Translations under genes and position numbers: made by a program | Notes under the pieces: generated by a model | What the model saw: the letters and a program-made list of their open reading frames with translations, nothing else | Told to the model about the DNA's origin: nothing | Database searches by the model: none | Shown: piece by piece, positions 505 through 14,675 of the stretch | Numbering within the stretch: the stretch's first letter is position 1 | Layout of the letters: every line of letters starts with the position of its first letter | DNA from: Phycisphaerae bacterium | GTDB lineage: Bacteria > Planctomycetota > Phycisphaerae > UBA1845 | Reading direction: 5' to 3' | DNA length: 64,000 nucleotides | Assembly: GCA_024102815.1 (NCBI GenBank) | Contig: JAGFJJ010000069.1 | Location: forward strand, 202,950 to 266,949

Positions 505-3500
505 CTACGCGGCGCCCGACGGTGCCAGGGACGTTCCCGCAGTGGATTCGCGCCGCCCGATGCGATCTCCGTGAAGCTCGAGCACGATGCCGGGGTAGCG
601 GGGATGGGATCGGAACCCGAATGGCTCCAGCCAGCTCGCCCGGATGAACTCGGCCGACACCACCTTGACGCCGTCCGCCGCCTGCCGCCGCAGGAACTCC
701 TCGAGCAGGATTTGCCCGATGCCCCGCCCGCGGTTTCGCGGCAGCACGGCGATCTTGTCGAGAATCACGTGTGACGGCGTCCGGCGAATAAACGCCACCC
801 CGCCGACCACGTAGCCCGCCTGGTCGGTGCCCACGAGAAGGCGTTCGCGGGAAGTCAGGCCGCCGCCGATGCCGCTCGCGTAGAAAATGCGATTGAGCGT
901 GTCGACTTCTCGGGAGTTGGCCGCGGGGCGGATTTTCAGGAACCGCCCGATCCGGTCGGTATGGTGCGTTGCCAGTTCGGCGCGGTCCTGTCCGACCTCG
1001 CCGGAGCGCACCAGCTCCGCCCGTGTATCGACTTCGAGGTGCGGATACGTGGCCCGCGTCAGGAAGTACTGTTGATCCTGCGACGGCATGGTCTCCTTCA
1101 GTTCCACGTACAAGCGCCCCAGCACGTCCTTGATGCTCGCGCCGTCGCGCAATCGGACAATCGCCTCGCGAATGGTCCGCTGTCCCTCCGGCGGGGCATT
1201 TCGCAGGACCGTCTCCGCGAAAAGCCACAGGCGCGATCCGGGGAACTTCCGTCGCACCTCTTCGATGCGGTAGTTGTTCTTGATCTCGTGCAACTGCGCC
1301 GCCCGGGCGTGCGTGTTTGCTTCGGGAACCTGCTGTTCCCAGGCGCGATATCGTTCGATCGCGCAATACAGGGCACGCGGCATGTAGCCGTCGCGCCGAA
1401 CGGCTCCAATGTACTTGCGGAGCTCCTCGGCCAGCTCGACGACCTCGCGGTCCGGTTCCACCGTTCTACCCGCCTCGGACAGTGCTTCCTCCAGAAACGA
1501 CAGCCCGTCCCGCATTCCAAGCGCTTCAATCGCCGCTGCAAACAGAATCTCATCCTGCGTGTGCGGGATCAGGGCCGGGAAATGAAAGCGTACGCGGTCC
1601 AGCAGGGCTCGCTTGAGCCGCAGGACCATGTCCAGCGTTCCCTCAAACGGCCGCCAGCCTGCGGCGGATACCACGCGAATGTTCTCATCAAAATCGTTGA
1701 GCGGAACGCTCACATCGCGCGTTACCGTTCCCACGAGCATCCACTGACGTTCGGTGCGCCGATGGAATTCGTAGGCTGCGGTGAGCGCCGCCCAGGAGAG
1801 ATGCCTCCACGAACCCCGCAGGCGCTGCAAGACGTCGCGATCGGGATGGTCGTGCATGTGCCGGGTGAGAGACTCCAGCGGTTCGCCGGGAATGTACTCG
1901 AGCGTGGCCAGTCCGTACTGAGGCCAATATCCCCCGACCTTGGGTGTCAGTGCCGTTTCGCCGGGGCCGCCGGCCGCCACGGTCATCAGGCGCAGATCGG
2001 TCACAAAGGCCTCGGTCGCGGCCGTGCTGTTCACGTAGAGCGTGAAGTCTACCCGTTCCCGGTTCCGCAGCCGCACGCCGACGTGGTAGACGCTGCGTCC
2101 GAAGCGCGTGCCGAGGAGACTGATCCAGACACTACCGGGCGTGAGATCCTCCAAACCGAGTTTGTGCCGTTGATGAAGGAGATGGACGGCTTCGGGAATC
2201 AGGTCGGTGGCCAGCATCGCCGCCGTAATCCGCGCCAACTCGCCCGGATCGATTCCGTCTTCGAAGCGGCACGCATCCGCCCAGGTGAATGTCTCGCCGG
2301 TGTCCGGGTCCACGACCTCCGGTTCCCGTGGCGGCAGCCTGTGGCGCACGCCCTCCACGAGTCGATTGGCGATTCGCTCCGCGTTCTTCGGCAATGGCGG
2401 AGCGAGCTTGGCCAGCATCCACGCCGTCAACTCCCTGCGAACCGGAAGGAAATAATCCGGGTTGCGCTCCGGGATGCGCCCGAGCGCCTCCAAGAGTCCC
2501 TGCGCAAACGATTCCGCTTGTCCATTCCGCGAGTGGGCCACGATGCGTCGGAGCGATGCCAGCGCGGCTGCCAGGCAACTCCATTTCCCACCGTCCACCG
2601 GAAGTGCGGCGATCGTGGCCACCGCCTCTTCGTCGAGAAACGGGCGGAGCGACTCGCAGAACATCGCGGCGGTCCGGCCGAAGTTCTCGACCGGCTGATG
2701 CTCGAACAGCGCTGCGAACGCCCGGCTCCGCACAACTTCCTGGGGATGCATGGCCGCGAGCTGGAGATGGGTTTCGGCCAGTTCCTGGTAGCTCGCCCGA
2801 CCGGCCGTGATGGCGCGCGTCAGATGCTCCACCGCGACCAGCGCGTCATTCGGGTCGGGCGCGGAGAGGAACACGGCCGCGGAGTGGATCGTCATCAGGC
2901 TGGGCGTTGCCGTGCCGGTCGTATCCAATCGCCTCCGCCATTCCTCCACCGGGGAGATCGGCGTCCGCATGCCAACCAGCCGCGCCGGCGTGGAGCGATC
3001 TCCGCGCGACAGCGACCAGAGAAGAATGCTCTCGCCGGCGATGTGGGAAAGTTCGGCATTGCCCACCCAGAGTCTTGGCAGCCGCAGCCAGTCATCCAGA
3101 TCGAATTGATCCCCGTCGATCTCGTAGCAGCAGTTGCCCACCCAGACCCGTCCGACCACGACGGAGTCCCTTCGGACGGTCAACTTCCGGTCGATGGCGC
3201 GAAATGCCAGCCCATCGGGCACGGTCTGAAGCCCGGACTCCGTGCCCCCGAGATGCTGAAGAAATGCAAAGGGCACACGGATGCGGAGCCCGTCGATCTT
3301 TCGCTCAATGGTCGACGACTCGTACATCCGTTCGATGACGTCGCGGAAATTCTCCGCAACCGCCGACCGGCGAAACGAACCCTTGTCGGTCAACTCTCCG
3401 CGCTCGGCCGAGAAATCGCGGTCGATCACGGCGAACTTCACGACGCGTTCGAACGGAGCGAGGAATCGGTTGCAGGTCGCCACGAGGCCGCGGAAGTACT

Positions 3501-5304
3501 CCTCCACCTCGGTCGGCGGCATCTCCGCGAATCTTACCTCCGGATAGCTCATGTTGGGGCGGATGAGGAGCGAGACGTACTCCCGCCCATCGCCGACGGC
3601 AAACACACGCGAGACTTCGGGGAAGTCCGCGAAGAGCGATTCCACGCGCTGGGGCGCGACGGTCCGCCCCTGGGCGTTCTTGTAGATGTCTTTCTTGCGA
3701 TCGACATGGCGGATAAAGCCGACTTCATCCTTCTGGACCACATCGCCGGTGCAGAACCAGCCGTCGCGGAACACGCCCTTGTTGTCTTCGGGATTCGTAT
3801 ATCCCTGGGTGACATAGGGTCCGCGGAGCATGAGCTCTCCATCCTCGCCGAGGCCCAGTTCGATGCCCGGCAGGGCTTTGCCGATGGAATCGTCCCGATA
3901 TTGTCCCGGCGGCGTCATGGTGATGCCCCCGGTCGCTTCGGTCATGCCGTATCCACTGAGAAGATCGACGCCGGCATTCTGGAAGAACCGGAACACGGCG
4001 GGGTCGAGCCGACCGGCGGCGCTGAGCCCCCAGCGCAATCGGCCGCCCGTCAATTGCGCCAGCGCCTTGCGCACTTCGTCGGGATTGTCCGGCGGCTCGT
4101 CATGGGCGACCACGGCCCGCCGAAGGTCGATCCACTTCTTGGGGACGCTGATCATCGCCGTCGGTCGAAATGTCTGCATGTTCCGTATGATGGTTTCCGT
4201 CGAGGCGTCTTCCGCGAACACGTAGGCGGCGGCCAGGTGTACACATCCCAGCATTTCGAGAAACCGGCCGAAGGTGTGATAGAGCGGCAGGTAGCACAGC
4301 AAGACCTCGTGTTCGTCGATTTCGGGAAGCGCCGCCGCCCGGCAATAGCGCTTGCTAACCAGGCTCAATTGAGTGAACTGAATGCCCTTCGGCGCCCCCG
4401 TGGTTCCTGATGTGTACATAGTCGTGGCGACGTCGAGCGCACGGACGCGCTTCGACCGTTCCGTGAGCAGGTCCGCCGGTGTCTCCGCGCCCCGTTCGAT
4501 CAACTCCGCGAGGGTCAGGACGTTGCCCCCGGGGACATGCGGCAGGACATCCAGCGATACGAGCCACTCAATCGACGGCACACGCTGGAGGGCCGCGAAT
4601 GCCTGAGGAACCTGCTGCGCGCCGGAAACCACGACGAGGCGCGCCCCGGATTCCGCGAGGATGTGCTCGACCTGTTCCTGGGTGGCGTTGGCCGGCACAC
4701 TGCAAACGAAGATACCGTTGCCCAGGAACGCGAGGTCGCAGAGCACGCCCTCGATCCGGTTGGGCGTGTACAAAGCCACGCGGGCGTCGTCGCCGAGCAG
4801 CGCCAGCGCGCCGCGAGCGATCCGCTCGGACTCCGCGAGCACCTCCGCCAACGCGTACTCGGCCACCTGATCGCGGCGGGGGACGACAAAGACGTTGCGA
4901 TCGGGATACTGACCCGCGCGTTGGCGCAGCATCGCCCCCACGTGAAAGTCGCTTTTTTCGATGAGCTTGCAGACCAGGTCGATCCAGACACCGCCCGGCC
5001 GACCGGGCTCCGGAGGGTAAGCCGCCGCGCGAACGCGTTTGTCGCGGGCGAGGTCGATGAAGCGATGGACGTTGTCCAGGAACGCGGATCGATCGGCAGC
5101 ATCCGAGGGGACATCCGGCAGTCGTTCCAGAATGGTGGTACCCGCGGCGGTGAGTGCGTCGATATCGATACTTGATCGCACATGGGCCCCAGCCGCCTGC
5201 AATACGGAGCGGGTCGCCGCAGCGATGTCCTTCGGTCCCTTCGCGGCGCGGAGGGTCACCACGGCACCGGGGAGGTCTCCGACGCCTTTTGCCGAGTCAA
5301 TCAT
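505..5304 (-). CDS. Giant adenylate-forming ligase fused to a GNAT acetyltransferase
   Basis: This encodes 1599 residues. The first ~650 form an AMP-binding (acyl-CoA synthetase class) enzyme: phosphate loop YTSGTTGAPKG near residue 295, GYGMTEATGG near 450, DGWFCTGD near 513, the hinge DRKKDIYKN near 535 and the catalytic-lysine motif TDKGSFRR near 640. The last ~130 residues are a GNAT fold with the acetyl-CoA loop RNRGRGIGQ near 1520. The ~800 residues between them match nothing I recognise; they begin with a beta-rich stretch, then become helical. ATG at 5304 was chosen because GGAG lies 6 bases upstream; an ATG at 5319 is possible. Family knowledge predicts ATP-dependent activation of a carboxylic acid, probably a fatty acid. 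Acetylation of a linked substrate is inference. The alpha/beta hydrolase gene lies 84 bases upstream on the same strand, so the two may be co-transcribed. Confidence 0.85.
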   Translation of the reverse strand: MIDSAKGVGDLPGAVVTLRAAKGPKDIAAATRSVLQAAGAHVRSSIDIDALTAAGTTILERLPDVPSDAADRSAFLDNVHRFIDLARDKRVRAAAYPPEPGRPGGVWIDLVCKLIEKSDFHVGAMLRQRAGQYPDRNVFVVPRRDQVAEYALAEVLAESERIARGALALLGDDARVALYTPNRIEGVLCDLAFLGNGIFVCSVPANATQEQVEHILAESGARLVVVSGAQQVPQAFAALQRVPSIEWLVSLDVLPHVPGGNVLTLAELIERGAETPADLLTERSKRVRALDVATTMYTSGTTGAPKGIQFTQLSLVSKRYCRAAALPEIDEHEVLLCYLPLYHTFGRFLEMLGCVHLAAAYVFAEDASTETIIRNMQTFRPTAMISVPKKWIDLRRAVVAHDEPPDNPDEVRKALAQLTGGRLRWGLSAAGRLDPAVFRFFQNAGVDLLSGYGMTEATGGITMTPPGQYRDDSIGKALPGIELGLGEDGELMLRGPYVTQGYTNPEDNKGVFRDGWFCTGDVVQKDEVGFIRHVDRKKDIYKNAQGRTVAPQRVESLFADFPEVSRVFAVGDGREYVSLLIRPNMSYPEVRFAEMPPTEVEEYFRGLVATCNRFLAPFERVVKFAVIDRDFSAERGELTDKGSFRRSAVAENFRDVIERMYESSTIERKIDGLRIRVPFAFLQHLGGTESGLQTVPDGLAFRAIDRKLTVRRDSVVVGRVWVGNCCYEIDGDQFDLDDWLRLPRLWVGNAELSHIAGESILLWSLSRGDRSTPARLVGMRTPISPVEEWRRRLDTTGTATPSLMTIHSAAVFLSAPDPNDALVAVEHLTRAITAGRASYQELAETHLQLAAMHPQEVVRSRAFAALFEHQPVENFGRTAAMFCESLRPFLDEEAVATIAALPVDGGKWSCLAAALASLRRIVAHSRNGQAESFAQGLLEALGRIPERNPDYFLPVRRELTAWMLAKLAPPLPKNAERIANRLVEGVRHRLPPREPEVVDPDTGETFTWADACRFEDGIDPGELARITAAMLATDLIPEAVHLLHQRHKLGLEDLTPGSVWISLLGTRFGRSVYHVGVRLRNRERVDFTLYVNSTAATEAFVTDLRLMTVAAGGPGETALTPKVGGYWPQYGLATLEYIPGEPLESLTRHMHDHPDRDVLQRLRGSWRHLSWAALTAAYEFHRRTERQWMLVGTVTRDVSVPLNDFDENIRVVSAAGWRPFEGTLDMVLRLKRALLDRVRFHFPALIPHTQDEILFAAAIEALGMRDGLSFLEEALSEAGRTVEPDREVVELAEELRKYIGAVRRDGYMPRALYCAIERYRAWEQQVPEANTHARAAQLHEIKNNYRIEEVRRKFPGSRLWLFAETVLRNAPPEGQRTIREAIVRLRDGASIKDVLGRLYVELKETMPSQDQQYFLTRATYPHLEVDTRAELVRSGEVGQDRAELATHHTDRIGRFLKIRPAANSREVDTLNRIFYASGIGGGLTSRERLLVGTDQAGYVVGGVAFIRRTPSHVILDKIAVLPRNRGRGIGQILLEEFLRRQAADGVKVVSAEFIRASWLEPFGFRSHPRYPGIVLELHGDRIGRRESTAGTSLAPSGAA

Positions 5305-5388: not shown

Positions 5389-6207
5389 CTAGCCGTTCTC
5401 GTGGTTGAGAAAGTCGAGGATCGCCGCATCAAACGCTTCCTGCTGCTCCTCGAATACGCCGTGTCCGGCGCGGGGGATCATATGCAACGTTGCTCCTTTG
5501 ATCCCCTTGGCCAGCTCGCGCACAATCTCGGCCGGCATGAGCTGATCCTTCTCCGCGCCGATGACAAGGGTGCGCGCTCGAATCGCCGAAAGCACCGGAC
5601 GGGTGTCGAAATCCATACACGCCTCGACCGATACCACGAAATCACTCGGATCCTCTGTAACCTTGAGAAACAGTTTTCCCTCGGCGGGCAGGAGCGCCTC
5701 GTAGAATTGCCTCCTTGCGGGGCCGTACGTTCGAGCGACGAGCTCCAGGTAGACCTCGCGCCAACGTCCGTCTCGGGCGAGCTCAACCCAATGCCCGTAC
5801 ACGTCGTCGGAACCGGGCGGCGTGCGGCACCCGCACAGTGCCAGTACCAGCCGGTTGACCCGGTCGGGGTAAGCCGCGGCGAATTCCTGCGCAATGACGC
5901 CGCCCATGGAGATGCCCAGGACGTCGGTCCGGCCGACGGTCTTGTCGATCACCGCGGCGTAGTCACCGGCCATGTCGCGCATGGTCGCCCCGCGAGGAAG
6001 TCCGCGGCGCCGGCCGATCCAATACACGGTGCGGCCTTCGGCGAAGCGAGAGCAGAACCAGGTAATGAAACGCCTTCGGCTGGCCAGTTCCTGGAGGGCG
6101 TCATTGATTCCCGGAAACACGACGAGAGGCGGTCCGGGTTCGCCGACGCGCCCGTACGGAAACGCATCGAGGAACATCCCGAACTCGGCCTGGGGGAGCT
6201 TGGTCAT
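5389..6207 (-). CDS. Alpha/beta-fold hydrolase
   Basis: A 272-residue soluble alpha/beta hydrolase. The nucleophile elbow is GISMGG, about one third into the protein. The acid is probably the Asp in AEKDQLMP, and the catalytic His lies in AGHGVFEEQ near the end, so the Ser-Asp-His triad is intact. The oxyanion region follows VVFPGIND. The length is normal for small-molecule esterases, lactonases and C-C hydrolases of this family; no substrate can be named. It lies just upstream of the ligase/GNAT gene on the same strand, which suggests one transcript and perhaps thioesterase or esterase work on the same acyl group, but this is inference. It is divergent from the kinase gene at 6426. Confidence 0.88.
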   Translation of the reverse strand: MTKLPQAEFGMFLDAFPYGRVGEPGPPLVVFPGINDALQELASRRRFITWFCSRFAEGRTVYWIGRRRGLPRGATMRDMAGDYAAVIDKTVGRTDVLGISMGGVIAQEFAAAYPDRVNRLVLALCGCRTPPGSDDVYGHWVELARDGRWREVYLELVARTYGPARRQFYEALLPAEGKLFLKVTEDPSDFVVSVEACMDFDTRPVLSAIRARTLVIGAEKDQLMPAEIVRELAKGIKGATLHMIPRAGHGVFEEQQEAFDAAILDFLNHENG

Positions 6208-6425
6208 CGCCGAACCAGTTTACGGGACTGTGCGATGCAGGCGAGCCAGGCGGGAAGCAGGGGGGTTGTCCGATTTCGAACGAAATTCTGTCGGGTAAAC
6301 ATGCAAACTCCGCGCAAAGACGGGTATGATTACCAGGCGATCAGGAAGACTCAAATCACTTGGCCTGCAAAGGTTGCAGGTCTGCTGCCGCAGGCGCCAG
6401 CGATCCCGGGCAGGGGAACTTGGGC

Positions 6426-8306
6426 ATGGATCAGGCCGTGACATGCCGTTTGACGGAAGAAGAGCTTTGGAGCGGGCTTGATCGGAACGCGCCGGAGATT
6501 CTCGAGCACGTTGAAAACTGCCCAACCTGCCAGGAACGTGCCGGATCGTTGCGCGCCACGATTGCCGCAGTTGCGTCTGCATCCGAGCCCGAGGTATGTC
6601 CGATTCCGCAGCGCATCGGCCCGTACCTGATCCAGCGCCGACTTGGTCTCGGCGGAATGGGCATTGTCTATGAGGGCGAGCAGGAGAACCCTCGCCGGCT
6701 TGTCGCCGTCAAGGTCGTACGCGGAGGCCACTATGTCGACGACTATCGCGTTCGACTCTTCCAGCGCGAAGTGGAGACGCTTGCGAGGCTCAAGCATCCG
6801 GCCATCGCGGCGATTTACGAGGCAGGTCGGACGGCAGACGGCCAGCACTACTTTGCGATGGAACTCGTCCGGGGGATGCGGCTCAACGACTACGTCCTGG
6901 ATCGCCACGTGCCGCTGCGGCAGCGGCTCGAGTTGTTCATGAAGATCTGCGACGCGATCAACTACGCCCACCAGCGCGGGGTGATTCACCGCGACATCAA
7001 GCCCAGCAACATTCTCGTGGATGCAGAAGGTAATCCGAAGATTCTTGACTTCGGTCTGGCCCGGATCACGGACTCGGAAATGGGCGCGACCACCACCGGA
7101 TCACTCGTCGGCCGGATCATGGGCACCCTGCCCTACATGAGCCCGGAAGAAGCCCGGGGAAATCCCGACGAGATCGACGTCCGCGGTGACGTTTACTCGC
7201 TCGGCGTCATTCTCTACGAGATGCTCACTGGGAGCCTGCCGTACACTGTCAGCCGGCAGGCCATTCCCGAGGCCATTCGCGTCATCTGCGAGGAAGTGCC
7301 ACGGCGTCCCAGCCAGTTCGACCGCAGTCTGCGCGGTGATCTGGAGACGATCATCCTGAAATCGCTGGAGAAGGAGCGGGCCCGCCGCTACCAGAGCCCG
7401 GCCGCGCTCGCCGAGGATGTCGGGCGATTCCTGCGCAACGAGCCGATCCTGGCGCGGCGGACGAGCACGCTTTACCTCACGCGGAAGTTCGTCCAGCGGC
7501 ACAGCATCGTCGTGGCCTTGATCGTCCTGATGATAGCAGCCGGCGCGTTCGTCCAATACATGAGCGAGCGCGTTCAAACGGAAGCCAACAATGCTGCGCT
7601 GGTGAACAGCATGTTCAACGATCTCGCCACGGCCGCCAGTTTTGAGGAGCTGGCACGCGACTCGCGCAGCGTCGGGCAACCGGAAGTACTGGACAGAGCC
7701 GCGGCGCTGGACCGTTCGGCGCGTCTCTACCGTGAGGCTTTGCACACGTACGAGCGAATCGTGGACGAAGGCCCGGAGTCGGTGGCGAACACCGCACGGC
7801 AACGGCTGGGAGGCGTAAAGTTGGGTCTGGGCCAGACGCTCATCGTGCGCGGCGTAACCGCTCAGGCGAACGCTCGCCCGAGCGCCCCGGATTTCGATGA
7901 GGCCAAACGGCTTATCAAGGACGGGCTGGATCTCTACGAAGAGTACAAACTCGCGATCCCGGAAGCCGAGGCCGGCTCTATCATCAGCGCCTTGCGAATG
8001 CTCCGAAGGTTGGAGGAAGCGAACCCGCCAGCCGGTGATATGGCGGAGTTCCGCGACGATGCCGATCTCAATGAAGCCGGGGATTTTGCGGAAGGCCCAC
8101 CGGCGCCGGGCGGCTCGGCTCCCGTGCCGGAAGAGGGCGGCGCTTCCGAGCCAGGCGGTGACGCGGCGGCCAACGACCTGCTGCCTCCGGCCGGAGACCT
8201 CGAACAGGCCTTTAATCTCGGTGAAATCGATGCCATGATACGGCGTGTCGCCTCGCTATCAGGACAAGAGGTGCCCGAACTCCATACCTCGGGCACTTTG
8301 CAGTAA
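6426..8306 (+). CDS. Membrane Ser/Thr protein kinase with anti-sigma-like zinc motif
   Basis: The protein has 626 residues. Residues 28-35 read HVENCPTC (His-x3-Cys-x2-Cys), the zinc-binding pattern of ZAS anti-sigma domains. The kinase domain follows from about residue 66: glycine loop LGLGGMG, Lys in VAVKVV, HRDIKPSN with Asp190, DFG, and SPEE for APE. A single membrane segment lies at about 359-379. Beyond it is a helical, TPR-like region and an acidic Pro/Gly-rich tail. ATG at 6426 is preferred over upstream codons because GGGGAA precedes it and the zinc motif then sits near the N terminus. The ECF sigma gene begins 24 bases downstream. In planctomycetes such kinase/ECF pairs are known; here the kinase probably binds the sigma factor and senses an outside signal. 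The signal is unknown. Confidence 0.9.
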   Translation: MDQAVTCRLTEEELWSGLDRNAPEILEHVENCPTCQERAGSLRATIAAVASASEPEVCPIPQRIGPYLIQRRLGLGGMGIVYEGEQENPRRLVAVKVVRGGHYVDDYRVRLFQREVETLARLKHPAIAAIYEAGRTADGQHYFAMELVRGMRLNDYVLDRHVPLRQRLELFMKICDAINYAHQRGVIHRDIKPSNILVDAEGNPKILDFGLARITDSEMGATTTGSLVGRIMGTLPYMSPEEARGNPDEIDVRGDVYSLGVILYEMLTGSLPYTVSRQAIPEAIRVICEEVPRRPSQFDRSLRGDLETIILKSLEKERARRYQSPAALAEDVGRFLRNEPILARRTSTLYLTRKFVQRHSIVVALIVLMIAAGAFVQYMSERVQTEANNAALVNSMFNDLATAASFEELARDSRSVGQPEVLDRAAALDRSARLYREALHTYERIVDEGPESVANTARQRLGGVKLGLGQTLIVRGVTAQANARPSAPDFDEAKRLIKDGLDLYEEYKLAIPEAEAGSIISALRMLRRLEEANPPAGDMAEFRDDADLNEAGDFAEGPPAPGGSAPVPEEGGASEPGGDAAANDLLPPAGDLEQAFNLGEIDAMIRRVASLSGQEVPELHTSGTLQ

Positions 8307-8330
8307 ACCACCGGGGCAAGGGTTCTGCAC

Positions 8331-8885
8331 ATGACGTCGAGCGAATGGGGAGAAACGGCGGAACTTGTCGAGCAGTTGCGGTCGGGCGGGGCCCAGGCCG
8401 CGCCGATCTTCGATCGGCAATATCGCGAGTCCCTCGTGCGATTCTGCTGGGGCTATCTCGGCGACATTGCCGACGCCGAGGATGCCGTGCAGGAAATCGC
8501 CTTCAAGGTTCTGACGGCTGAGAATATCCCCGATCGTTTTCGGCCCTGGCTCTACCGCGTCGCGCGAAATCACTGCCTCAACCTTCTTCGGGATCGTGCC
8601 CGCCGACGCGATCGTTTTGAGCTTCCCACCGACGCCCGCGTTCGTGCCTCCATGACCGGAAATCTCACGCGTCTTGTGCGGGACGAGGACAAGCGAATCG
8701 TGATCGAGCTGGTTCAGCGGTTGCCGGAAAGCCAGCGCGAAGTCCTCCGCTTGCGCTATGTGGAGGGGCTCTCTCGAGCGGAGATCGCGGAAGTGCTGGA
8801 ACTGTCCGAGTCGGTGGTGAAAAGCAGGCTCTTCGAGGGCCTTCAACGGCTTCGAAACTCTACCGGCAGTGCTCAGGACACTTAG
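8331..8885 (+). CDS. ECF-type RNA polymerase sigma factor
   Basis: The protein has 184 residues. Region 2 contains the FDRQYRESLVRFCWGYLGD helix, then DAEDAVQEIAFKVL and the WLYRVARNHCLNLLRD -10-binding segment. Region 4 is a clear helix-turn-helix: LPESQREVLRLRYVEGLS, then IAEVLELSESVVKSRLFEGLQRL. Both promoter-binding domains are therefore intact, and the length is typical of ECF factors with no C-terminal extension. AAGGG lies about 9 bases before the ATG. The kinase gene ends 24 bases upstream, so the two are almost certainly co-transcribed. Control by phosphorylation or zinc-domain binding from the kinase is inferred from this arrangement. Confidence 0.92.
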   Translation: MTSSEWGETAELVEQLRSGGAQAAPIFDRQYRESLVRFCWGYLGDIADAEDAVQEIAFKVLTAENIPDRFRPWLYRVARNHCLNLLRDRARRRDRFELPTDARVRASMTGNLTRLVRDEDKRIVIELVQRLPESQREVLRLRYVEGLSRAEIAEVLELSESVVKSRLFEGLQRLRNSTGSAQDT

Positions 8886-10967: not shown

Positions 10968-12041
10968 TCATTTCGTCCGCTCGTAAAGATACCCGGCTTC
11001 CTCCAGCCGCGCGCGTCCCCCTTCGAACACCGCACATTGCCCCCCGGACCAGATCGAGGCCGAACCGAATCGACCGTCCTTCGCCACGGCGTAGAACTTC
11101 ACGTCGAAGTTCGGGCGCCCCTGGGAATCCAGCAGCCGTTTCTCCGTGGTCGTTGCCACGATGCGCTTGAGCGCCGATCGGCATGCCTCGGCCGGGCTCA
11201 TTCCGTGACGCATTCCCTCGACGACGGTGTGTGCTCCGCAGATCTTGATGACCGCTTCGCCGCGTCCCGTCGCGCCGGCCGCGCCGACTTCGTTGTCCAC
11301 GTACAGCCCGGCTCCGATGATGGGGGAGTCGCCCACGCGTCCCGGGATCTTGAATGCGAGCCCGCTCGTCGTGGTCACGCCGCCGAGATCTCCCCCCGGC
11401 GTGACGGCACAGCAGTTGATCGTCCCGTAATGGCGCTTGGCATGCTCGATGGGCGCCGCGCCCTGGCGACTGTCCGCCGGCGGCAGCCAGTCGTCCTCGT
11501 TCGAGAGGCCTTCTTTCCATTCCAGCCAGAGCTTCCTCGCGCGATCGGTGAGCAGATTCGTTTCCTCGAAGCCGTGTGCCCGGGCGAAACGCAACGCTCC
11601 CTCGCCCACGAGCAGGACGTGGTCGGTGCGCTCCATGACCACGCGCGCGACGCGGGAGGGGTAGACGATATTGTGCAGCGCCGCGACCGCCCCCGCCCGG
11701 CAGGTCGGGCCGTGCATCACGCTGGAGTCCAGCTCGACCACGCCGTCTTCGTTGGGCAGACCGCCGAGCCCCACGGTGATGTCGTCCGGATCTTCCTCGA
11801 CGAGGTTCACGCCGGCGATCACGGCATCCAGCGGGTCTGCGTTCTTGAGAATCATCTGCGCGGCGCGGTCGACGGCGCGGATGCCGTTTGCGCTGGCGAT
11901 CACGACCGGGCCCCCGGTCCCGCGGGCGGGTTTGATTCCCTGGACTCTTGTCTGTCCGTGGGACTTGGCCGCCAGGGTTCCCGTCGCAATTGCGGCAGCC
12001 GCTGCCCGCCCGAGGAACTCACGCCGATCAATCCGGTTCAT
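10968..12041 (-). CDS. Tat-exported glycosylasparaginase (Ntn hydrolase)
   Basis: The 357-residue protein begins with a twin-arginine signal, DRREFLGRAAAAAIATGTLAA. The rest is the glycosylasparaginase/isoaspartyl peptidase fold: EEDPDDITVGLGGLPNEDG, the autoproteolysis site HYGTINC with Thr207 as the predicted new N-terminal nucleophile, GGVTTTSGLAFK, and GRVGDSPIIGAGLYVDN. Family members split the N-glycan-Asn bond or hydrolyse beta-aspartyl bonds. Autocleavage between Gly206 and Thr207 into alpha and beta chains is expected. Export to the periplasm suggests use on external glycopeptides, in line with polymer-degrading planctomycetes. The gene stands alone. The start is supported by GTGGGG about 10 bases upstream. 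Confidence 0.9.
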   Translation of the reverse strand: MNRIDRREFLGRAAAAAIATGTLAAKSHGQTRVQGIKPARGTGGPVVIASANGIRAVDRAAQMILKNADPLDAVIAGVNLVEEDPDDITVGLGGLPNEDGVVELDSSVMHGPTCRAGAVAALHNIVYPSRVARVVMERTDHVLLVGEGALRFARAHGFEETNLLTDRARKLWLEWKEGLSNEDDWLPPADSRQGAAPIEHAKRHYGTINCCAVTPGGDLGGVTTTSGLAFKIPGRVGDSPIIGAGLYVDNEVGAAGATGRGEAVIKICGAHTVVEGMRHGMSPAEACRSALKRIVATTTEKRLLDSQGRPNFDVKFYAVAKDGRFGSASIWSGGQCAVFEGGRARLEEAGYLYERTK

Positions 12042-12334
12042 GGGAAGGGCCCCACAGGGTATTATGTAGCGAACTCGGGCGCAAGCTGCCGATAAGCTCG
12101 CTGCGTTGACAATTTGCGTACCCGATGCCGCCGGGTCCGGGGTTATTACAATTTTGTATCCGATCTTCTACTGGGCGCCCATCGTAGTCGATCCTAGAAC
12201 CCTGGTGCATCGAGCGCTGTCGGCCGCGGTGACGAAGTCAGCCGCCGCGGAGGAAAAAGCAGCTCGCCCGCAATCAGGACAGCGGCGCGGAGACTGCCCC
12301 GACAGCGGCGACCACGGAAGGAGCTAGGCAGGCC

Positions 12335-13054
12335 ATGCATCCGCTTGCGTTCATCATGTTCGACCCGATGTATTTCATCATCGTCGGCCCGGCCATCCTG
12401 TTGGCCATGTGGGCCCAAGCGGCGGTGAGTTCCGCATTTGCCAAGGGGAAGCGTCGCGCGGCGCGGAGCGGTTTAAGCGGGGCCGAGACCGCCCAGCGGA
12501 TCCTGAACTACTACGGGATCAGCGATGTCGCCGTGGAGCCCATCCGGACGCAACTCGGCGACCATTACGATCCAAAGCATAAGGTGCTGCGACTGAGCCC
12601 GGATGTGTATCACGGGCGGTCGCTGGCGGCGCTCGGCGTGGCTGCGCACGAAGTCGGACATGCCATTCAACACGCCAGCGGTTACGCTCCGCTGACGATG
12701 CGCAACCTGATCGTGCCGCTCGCCTCTACGGGCAGCCAATTGTCGTTCCTGCTGATCATTGGCGGGCTGATCTTGTCGTACATGCAGATCGGGCTGGGCA
12801 TGCCCGTGGCCTTGGCGGGCCTGATCCTATTCGGAGCGGTCGTGCTCTTTCAGATCGTGAACCTGCCGGTGGAGTTCAACGCGTCCAGCCGCGCCCGCGC
12901 GATCCTGCTCGATAACAACATGATCACGCGTGAAGAGGATGTGGTGGTTGGCAAGGTACTCAACGCGGCCGCCATGACCTACGTGGCCGCCACGATCACG
13001 GCGCTGGCGCAGATGATCTACTTCGCCATGCTGGTCTTCGGCCGCCGGAACTGA
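12335..13054 (+). CDS. YugP-type membrane zinc metallopeptidase
   Basis: The 239-residue membrane protein has an N-terminal membrane helix (residues ~9-30), then a soluble segment with AQRILNYYGI, then the zinc motif AAHEVGHAIQHA, and further helices (~135-175 and ~215-235). This order matches the neutral zinc metallopeptidase family of B. subtilis YugP (DUF2268/peptidase_Mx clan). FNASSRA near residue 188 is the usual third-ligand region. GGAAGGAG precedes the ATG. The family's role is unclear, probably turnover of membrane or envelope proteins. It converges with mtaB across 16 bases. Confidence 0.88.
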   Translation: MHPLAFIMFDPMYFIIVGPAILLAMWAQAAVSSAFAKGKRRAARSGLSGAETAQRILNYYGISDVAVEPIRTQLGDHYDPKHKVLRLSPDVYHGRSLAALGVAAHEVGHAIQHASGYAPLTMRNLIVPLASTGSQLSFLLIIGGLILSYMQIGLGMPVALAGLILFGAVVLFQIVNLPVEFNASSRARAILLDNNMITREEDVVVGKVLNAAAMTYVAATITALAQMIYFAMLVFGRRN

Positions 13055-13070
13055 TCGCGAGGCGAGCGCG

Positions 13071-14675
13071 TTATCCGACGTGGATGCTCAGGTGGGTTGC
13101 GCGTTCGATGTCCGGGGGGCGGTCGGGCCTGGAAGTCACAACCGTTCCATGCGTTCGCGTCGGTGTCGCGCGTTGGATCCGTACGCGAACCAGGTTGCCG
13201 GGAATTGCCCTTCCGGACGGGAAGTGGACGCGGAAGTAGCGATCGGTCCGGCCTTGGGCCAGCACCTCGGAATTCACAGGCGCGGGACGGACTGAGGAGT
13301 GCCCCGGCGGTCCTTCGTCGCCATCGCCCGCCGTCGATTCAACAATCACGCGCTCCACGGATCCCACCGCCTGTTGCCGGAACGTCAGCGACAGCTCGCG
13401 TTCCAGCTCCGCCAACCGATTCATCCGCTCCCGCACGACATCGGACCGAATAAACTGTCGCTGCCAGCGCGCGGCCGCGGTTCCTGCGCGTGGGCTGAAG
13501 GGAAAGGCGTGGATCTTGATGAACCCGGCAAATCGCGCGGTTTCGAGCGTCTTTGCAAAGTCGCCTTCGCTTTCTCCAGGGAATCCCACGATCACGTCCG
13601 TGGAGATTGCAGGCCGTTGGAGCTTTGTCCGAACCCGCTCGACCATCTCGTGGAAGTTTTCCCGGTCATACTGGCGGTTCATTCGCCGAAGCACGTCTTC
13701 GCTGCCGGATTGCAGCGGCAGATGCAGGTGGGGGACGCAATTCTCGTGACGGCGGAGAACGTCGAGGAGGGCGTGGCCGACGTCGCCGGGCTCCAAGCTC
13801 GAAAGCCGCAGCCGCGCAAGTCCTTCGACCTGAGCGAGGGCATCGACGAGTTCGGCCAGGGGTGCGTCATGGCGGTGAATGCGGCGCCGCAGGGCCGTCT
13901 CCCGCCCGTAGGCGCCGAGGAAAATGCCGGTCAGGACGATTTCGCGATGACCCGCGGCGACCAGTTGCCGCGCCTCGGCTACGGCATCATGAACTGACTT
14001 GGAGCGCAAGTCCGGGCGCAACCGGGGAATGATGCAGTAGGTGCAATGCGCGTCGCAGCCGTCCTGGATTTTGAGGAAGGCGCGCTGGTGCCGATCGAAA
14101 CGGCGGATCAATCCGATCGGGGTGCCCGCCTTGACACCCTCATCTTCGAGCGGAATAATCGGAAGTGGATGTATCGGCGGAGCTTGCCGCAATCGTCGGT
14201 CGTGGGTCGCCGGACCGGGCGTCGCCAAGCCTGATGTGGTCCTCGTTCCAATTGCCTGCCCAGGTATGTTATCCCCGGCGTCATGCGCGACGTGATTGTT
14301 CTCCGAAGACGGCGTGCCGGAGCTTACCGGCGGACGCGCTTCCAACAGCAGGCAAAGGCTCTTCCGAAGATCGGTTCCGTGCCCCCAGACGGCGTCGACG
14401 CCGTCGATACGGCGAAAGCGATCCGCGTCGGCCGAGGCGCCGCAGCCAAAGACGACGATTTGCTCGGCCGGTCCACCCAGGAGGCGTCGAACCTCCTGCC
14501 CGCTGCGGCGCAGCGCGTTCGTGGTGACTGCACAGGTGTTCACGACGGCGATGGAAGCCTGCTCGCCTTGGAGAGCGGGCTTGCCCCCGAGCGACTCGAG
14601 GATCTCGCGAACCTGTTGCGACTCGTACTGATTAACTTTACAGCCGAGTGTGCTCACCCGATACTTCCAGCCCAT
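13071..14675 (-). CDS. mtaB: tRNA threonylcarbamoyladenosine methylthiotransferase MtaB
   Basis: This radical-SAM enzyme adds a methylthio group to t6A37 of tRNAs reading ANN codons. The N-terminal UPF0004 domain carries STLGCKVNQYE, NTCAVT and GCGA (the three Cys of the second Fe-S cluster). The radical-SAM site is GCDAHCTYC from Cys207, followed by REIVLTGIFLGAYG and HLHLPLQSGSEDVLRRMNR. A TRAM-like C-terminal part follows. The protein has 534 residues, clearly longer than typical MtaB (about 430). The extra length includes a Pro/Gly/Thr-rich insert of ~55-60 residues between the two iron-sulfur regions (around residues 125-190), with no recognisable domain. ATG at 14675 precedes the conserved start GWKYRVSTLGC. 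The gene is divergent from the pil operon. Confidence 0.92.
   Translation of the reverse strand: MGWKYRVSTLGCKVNQYESQQVREILESLGGKPALQGEQASIAVVNTCAVTTNALRRSGQEVRRLLGGPAEQIVVFGCGASADADRFRRIDGVDAVWGHGTDLRKSLCLLLEARPPVSSGTPSSENNHVAHDAGDNIPGQAIGTRTTSGLATPGPATHDRRLRQAPPIHPLPIIPLEDEGVKAGTPIGLIRRFDRHQRAFLKIQDGCDAHCTYCIIPRLRPDLRSKSVHDAVAEARQLVAAGHREIVLTGIFLGAYGRETALRRRIHRHDAPLAELVDALAQVEGLARLRLSSLEPGDVGHALLDVLRRHENCVPHLHLPLQSGSEDVLRRMNRQYDRENFHEMVERVRTKLQRPAISTDVIVGFPGESEGDFAKTLETARFAGFIKIHAFPFSPRAGTAAARWQRQFIRSDVVRERMNRLAELERELSLTFRQQAVGSVERVIVESTAGDGDEGPPGHSSVRPAPVNSEVLAQGRTDRYFRVHFPSGRAIPGNLVRVRIQRATPTRTHGTVVTSRPDRPPDIERATHLSIHVG

Follow-up and report, generated by a model that had tools for sequence, protein, structure and literature searches.

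The Pat/PatZ proteins, in which an acyl-CoA-synthetase domain is joined to a GNAT domain (PMC8556138), are the nearest known architecture to the protein analyzed here. In types I and II, of which E. coli patZ is a named example, one large acyl-CoA-synthetase-type domain accompanies one GNAT, placed C-terminally in type I. However, the Pat/PatZ synthetase domain is NDP-forming and inactive, whereas our protein has an AMP-forming ligase, a 780-residue middle with a putative kinase-like part, and no NDP-forming synthetase family among its Pfam or listed NCBIfam matches; it is therefore not a Pat/PatZ member. FadD11/FadD15-like long-chain ligases (AMP-binding plus AMP-binding_C_3) have the N-terminal 665 residues and the core motifs in common with it, but the fusion carries about 930 extra residues and its lysine is displaced two residues from A10. 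FeeM, NasY and OlsB, which are stand-alone enzymes using acyl-ACP, resemble it in the GNAT-type acyl transfer to an amine that we hypothesize for the fusion. The UbiB/ABC1 and choline-kinase/APH-type atypical kinases are similar to it in predicted N-lobe element order and, in its most distant relative (L032), in a DPxPxN-like loop, but they gave no HMM match and the window protein lacks the catalytic residues. Each end is a common enzyme; none of the family libraries searched contained the combination, and a few narrow text searches found no paper on such a ligase-middle-GNAT fusion.

The window, the whole 64,000-nucleotide stretch of Phycisphaerae DNA that was analyzed, contains a stop-free open reading frame at 505-5304 on the minus strand that encodes 1599 amino acids. 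A ribosome-binding-like CAGGAG lies directly 5' of the ATG at 5304. Pfam placed AMP-binding (PF00501) at residues 127-502 (6e-58), AMP-binding_C_3 (PF23562) at 544-663 (4e-11) and a GNAT domain at 1487-1565 (2e-6, with PF13508 and PF00583 both above cut-off). GC3 was even across all parts (0.72-0.83), the pattern expected of one gene. The layout is as follows.

505-5304, minus strand: ligase / unassigned middle / GNAT fusion gene, 1599 aa (ORF, Pfam, homologues, GC3).
4951-5304, minus strand: N-terminal extension (residues 1-118) with low conservation (30-39% by per-domain identity).
3694-4950, minus strand: large lobe of the AMP-forming ligase, residues 119-537 (PF00501 at 127-502, motifs).
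Within the ligase, minus strand: conserved motifs YTSGTTGAPKG (residues 297-307), GYGMTEATGG (451-460), WFCTGD (516-521) and DRKKD (535-539).
3310-3693, minus strand: ligase C-terminal domain, residues 538-665 (PF23562 at 544-663).
2920-3309, minus strand: unassigned region, residues 666-795, strand-rich by eye (purifying selection).
2305-2919, minus strand: unassigned region, residues 796-1000, helical by eye (per-domain conservation).
1435-2304, minus strand: putative kinase-like (pseudokinase) region, residues 1001-1290 (low-confidence AlphaFold2 models, Foldseek/VIA, hhalign to UbiB).
1876-1908, minus strand: ATLEYIPGEPL (residues 1133-1143), a strand and turn resembling a hinge (motif of the preliminary description).
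1645-1743, minus strand: WMLVGTVTRDVSVPLNDFDENIRVVSAAGWRPF, residues 1188-1220, putative degenerate equivalent of the catalytic loop to DFG (aligned with L032 WILTDPNPHNVSIPLGDHEEDAKLRQIPERKKC).
1030-1584, minus strand: helical region, residues 1241-1425, joining to the GNAT (AlphaFold2 models, conservation).
574-1029, minus strand: GNAT domain and linker, residues 1426-1577, with the CoA P-loop RGRGIG at 1525-1530 (PF13508/PF00583).
5389-6207, minus strand: PcaD-like alpha/beta hydrolase gene upstream of the fusion, without a counterpart next to the homologues (profile matches, neighbourhood comparison).

The same fusion was found in nine other planctomycete genomes at 29-60% identity, ten with the window's own. 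It was carried by 7 of 150 near relatives (the window's own genome counted in) and by 3 of 397 genomes in a class-wide scan, and a phylum-wide scan added three further genomes with homologues at 29-37% identity; its distribution is rare and patchy. These scans covered one phylum, and a contig scan of all phyla by exact peptide patterns reaches close relatives only. Plasmid records held no credible relative of the fusion protein, and one scan of viral contigs held none. The full-length homologues are single ORFs of 1588-1614 aa, and the remaining copies are cut by contig ends only. Wherever the contig permits, ligase, middle and GNAT lie in one frame, suggesting that the activities stay together without help from neighbours, and no stand-alone module of middle plus GNAT without the ligase was seen in any genome scanned. 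By per-domain identity and a simple dN/dS with dS near saturation, purifying selection on the middle was about as strong as that on the catalytic domains. The preliminary description, which took the frame to be one 1599-residue gene, had raised the concern that three separate genes were joined by assembly error. An artefact of assembly or annotation has next to no probability, because the same fusion occurs in ten genomes, two of them single-contig chromosomes (CP070685 among them), and because GC3 is uniform and purifying selection extends along the full length; the independent full-length homologues rule it out. One further locus, L024 (9895-10059, G041:C401), holds a C-terminal fragment of the family that runs off the contig end. 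The fragment differs only slightly from the L018 copy and represents either an additional copy or variation between strains.

The N-terminal domain has the AMP-binding fold with P-loop, A5, A7 and A8 motifs (PF00501, motif alignment). Every member whose sequence extends over YTSGTTGxPKG, G(Y/F)GMTEATGG, TGD and DRKK(D/E) has these motifs, differing by no more than single residues. The ligase proposed in the preliminary description is thus present, but it is not quite standard. The position of the canonical A10 lysine, which in the aligned stand-alone ligases sits in LTPSMKIRR and ELTATGKLVRR, is S643 of the C-terminal motif ELTDKGSFRR (637-646) in the window protein, and the family pattern ELTxKGSFRR (with small variations) has Ser/Thr there throughout. 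Since the A10 lysine is needed for adenylation in related ligases, the domain may be impaired unless K641 (window numbering) substitutes. This residue is invariant in the family and lies two residues before the A10 position; because a comparable DKG motif occurs in certain other acyl-CoA ligases, it may replace the lysine. The best curated models for the domain were long-chain fatty acyl-CoA ligases, and genes for thiolase and FadB/3-hydroxyacyl-CoA dehydrogenase adjoin those of the two closest stand-alone ligases (31% and 29% identical), suggesting that the substrate is a fatty acid. In L032, an enoyl-CoA hydratase gene lies about 1 kb downstream. Two other large ORFs with AMP-ligase parts were noticed. 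One (L104, 5123-8776; 1217 residues) is beside thiolase and 3-hydroxyacyl-CoA dehydrogenase genes; its first 630 residues, before the ligase, match nothing assigned and may be partly over-called. The other, in the home genome (L022, 6594-10850, G000:C26), is a 1418-aa ORF with an internal AMP-binding part, possibly an Aas-type acyltransferase/ligase.

The GNAT domain, also recognized in the preliminary description, spans about residues 1455-1577. Its CoA loop, of the R/Q-x-x-G-x-G/A type characteristic of GNATs (PMC8556138), is intact as RGRGIG (R-x-x-G-x-G) in the window protein; members of the close clade have it too, apart from single-residue changes in one or two of them. GNAT-fold enzymes that produce N-acyl amino acids exist, and PF13444 is the Pfam domain named for OlsB-type N-acyltransferases (PMC11631085). 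PF13444 was not among the Pfam matches of the fusion protein, so its GNAT is not of the ornithine-lipid type. The best GNAT matches, which were weak, were to ordinary N-acetyltransferases of small-molecule and protein types.

The large middle was correctly described as matching no known family, as judged by sequence. Residues 665-1455 had no credible Pfam match, residues 680-1455 no NCBIfam or PADLOC match and residues 796-1000 no significant HEAT match; weak Pfam matches such as CnrY and EAD2 were confined to one or two family members. Searched by sequence against solved structures, the fusion protein matched GNATs only. A possible link to PEP/pyruvate-binding (PPDK_N)-GNAT proteins gained nothing from the home genome, where the PPDK_N ORF examined lacks the module.

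AlphaFold2 models were built from three sequences and had pLDDT values of 38-41, with residues 660-944 outside the models. At this low confidence, the shorter model shows helices, beta1-beta2-beta3, a helix, beta4-beta5 and two helices, which is the order of elements in a kinase N-lobe. Protein kinases made up all of the best 50 Foldseek matches of the shorter model (E 0.01-0.04) and 49 of the best 50 of the longer one. The PDB, however, contains a disproportionate number of kinases, and no GNAT appeared among the listed matches of the longer model, which certainly includes one. In VIA-align, Z values for CDC7 and choline kinases reached at most 5.0, short of what the tool regards as informative. 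Of the APH and UbiB families compared by hhalign, only the UbiB/ABC1 kinases aligned in register, with the UbiB DPHPGN loop set on TDPNPHN of L032 and GNPTPDN of L030. The UbiB score was reached by 12 of 90 column-shuffled nulls for the full alignment and by 1 of 90 for three distant members, the latter being the best of several comparisons (two kinase families, three query sets). The profile likeness to UbiB is thus only suggestive, with little strength for the family as a whole and more for its distant members. These lines of evidence are weak but convergent, and we infer a putative kinase-like fold within residues 1001-1290, the likeness spanning about 1005-1250.

The preliminary description had seen in this region a faint resemblance to aminoglycoside kinases. 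The kinase-like hint gained from the element order, the Foldseek lists and the UbiB alignment, but the aminoglycoside-kinase (APH) assignment found no support: none of nine members matched PF01636, hhalign against 20 APH proteins gave no alignment in register, and the catalytic residues are missing. NDFDENIRV, proposed as the catalytic-loop equivalent, falls just after that loop. At the positions of the beta3 lysine, the catalytic loop and DFG, the window protein has FTLYV, VGTVTRD and SAAGW, an assignment that depends on the register. In the alignment the beta3 lysine is absent from every member, and the window protein has neither the catalytic-loop Asp/Asn nor the DFG Asp at the aligned positions, suggesting that the region, if it has a kinase fold at all, is a pseudokinase.

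The reading that we favour, with a probability of roughly 0.4, is that the protein activates a fatty acid and passes it to an amine. The AMP-forming domain would take a carboxylic acid, for which a long-chain fatty acid is the likeliest candidate, through acyl-AMP to acyl-CoA, and the GNAT, with its intact CoA-pyrophosphate loop, would shift the acyl group from CoA onto the amine. The 780-residue middle would be a scaffold or regulator including a kinase-fold domain that lost its catalytic residues and that probably binds nucleotide, lipid or acceptor, or gates transfer. Several features argue against this reading, namely Ser/Thr at A10, the missing PF13444, the resemblance of the GNAT to ordinary N-acetyltransferases and a gene context that gives no pointer to the product. 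More speculatively, and with rather low odds, a degenerate UbiB/choline-kinase-like domain between ligase and GNAT might actively help the acyl group along by binding acyl-AMP/acyl-CoA or the acceptor, which would make the protein a new class of megaenzyme and a one-polypeptide route to lipid amides or protein fatty-acylation. With this fusion one can ask in a defined way if a kinase fold stripped of kinase residues supports acyl transfer; it may also represent a new activity, forming lipid amides or acylating proteins, among planctomycetes that have received little study.

Somewhat unlikely is a Pat-like regulatory acetyltransferase, in which the GNAT acetylates protein lysines from acetyl-CoA while ligase and pseudokinase sense acyl-CoA or nucleotide; its targets might include the C-terminal lysine in its own ligase domain or the corresponding lysine in other AMP-forming ligases. 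Type I/II bacterial GNATs carry a fused large acyl-CoA-synthetase domain as an acetyl-CoA sensor, and AMP-forming Acs loses its activity when a conserved C-terminal lysine is acetylated (PMC8556138). The altered A10 motif would suit a sensor, and the weak N-acetyltransferase matches of the GNAT agree with such a role, but the known types have an NDP-forming synthetase minus its catalytic His, whereas this ligase is AMP-forming with motifs otherwise intact. The independence of the Pfam domain matches, together with weak GNAT matches to both small-molecule and protein enzymes, fits two separate steps on one lipid product: the ligase would activate a fatty acid for use elsewhere, while the GNAT would acetylate an amine, be it on that molecule or on a different one, and the fusion would serve co-location only. 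We consider this improbable, since similar constraint over the whole length, including the middle, suggests that the activities are coupled. That the kinase-like region is instead an active atypical ATP-using domain, phosphorylating or adenylylating as a third activity, would agree with the placement of L032 TDPNPHN on the UbiB loop; with the beta3 lysine in no member and the loop and DFG residues lost from the window protein, the chance of this is slight.

The partnership with the adjacent hydrolase suggested in the preliminary description did not hold up, since no relative of the PcaD-like hydrolase was found near any homologue and, across the window and homologue loci compared, close homologues have no neighbouring gene in common beside the fusion. 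A sigma-54 activator-type gene lies within 10 kb in the window's contig and in L005, in the window not beside the fusion. L030 and L031 are close sisters with common neighbours. In L016, a divergent citrate synthase gene (11827-13131) is close upstream of the homologue. In the window, beside the hydrolase, a Ser/Thr protein kinase gene adjoins a sigma-70-family (ECF-like) sigma factor gene at 6360-8885.
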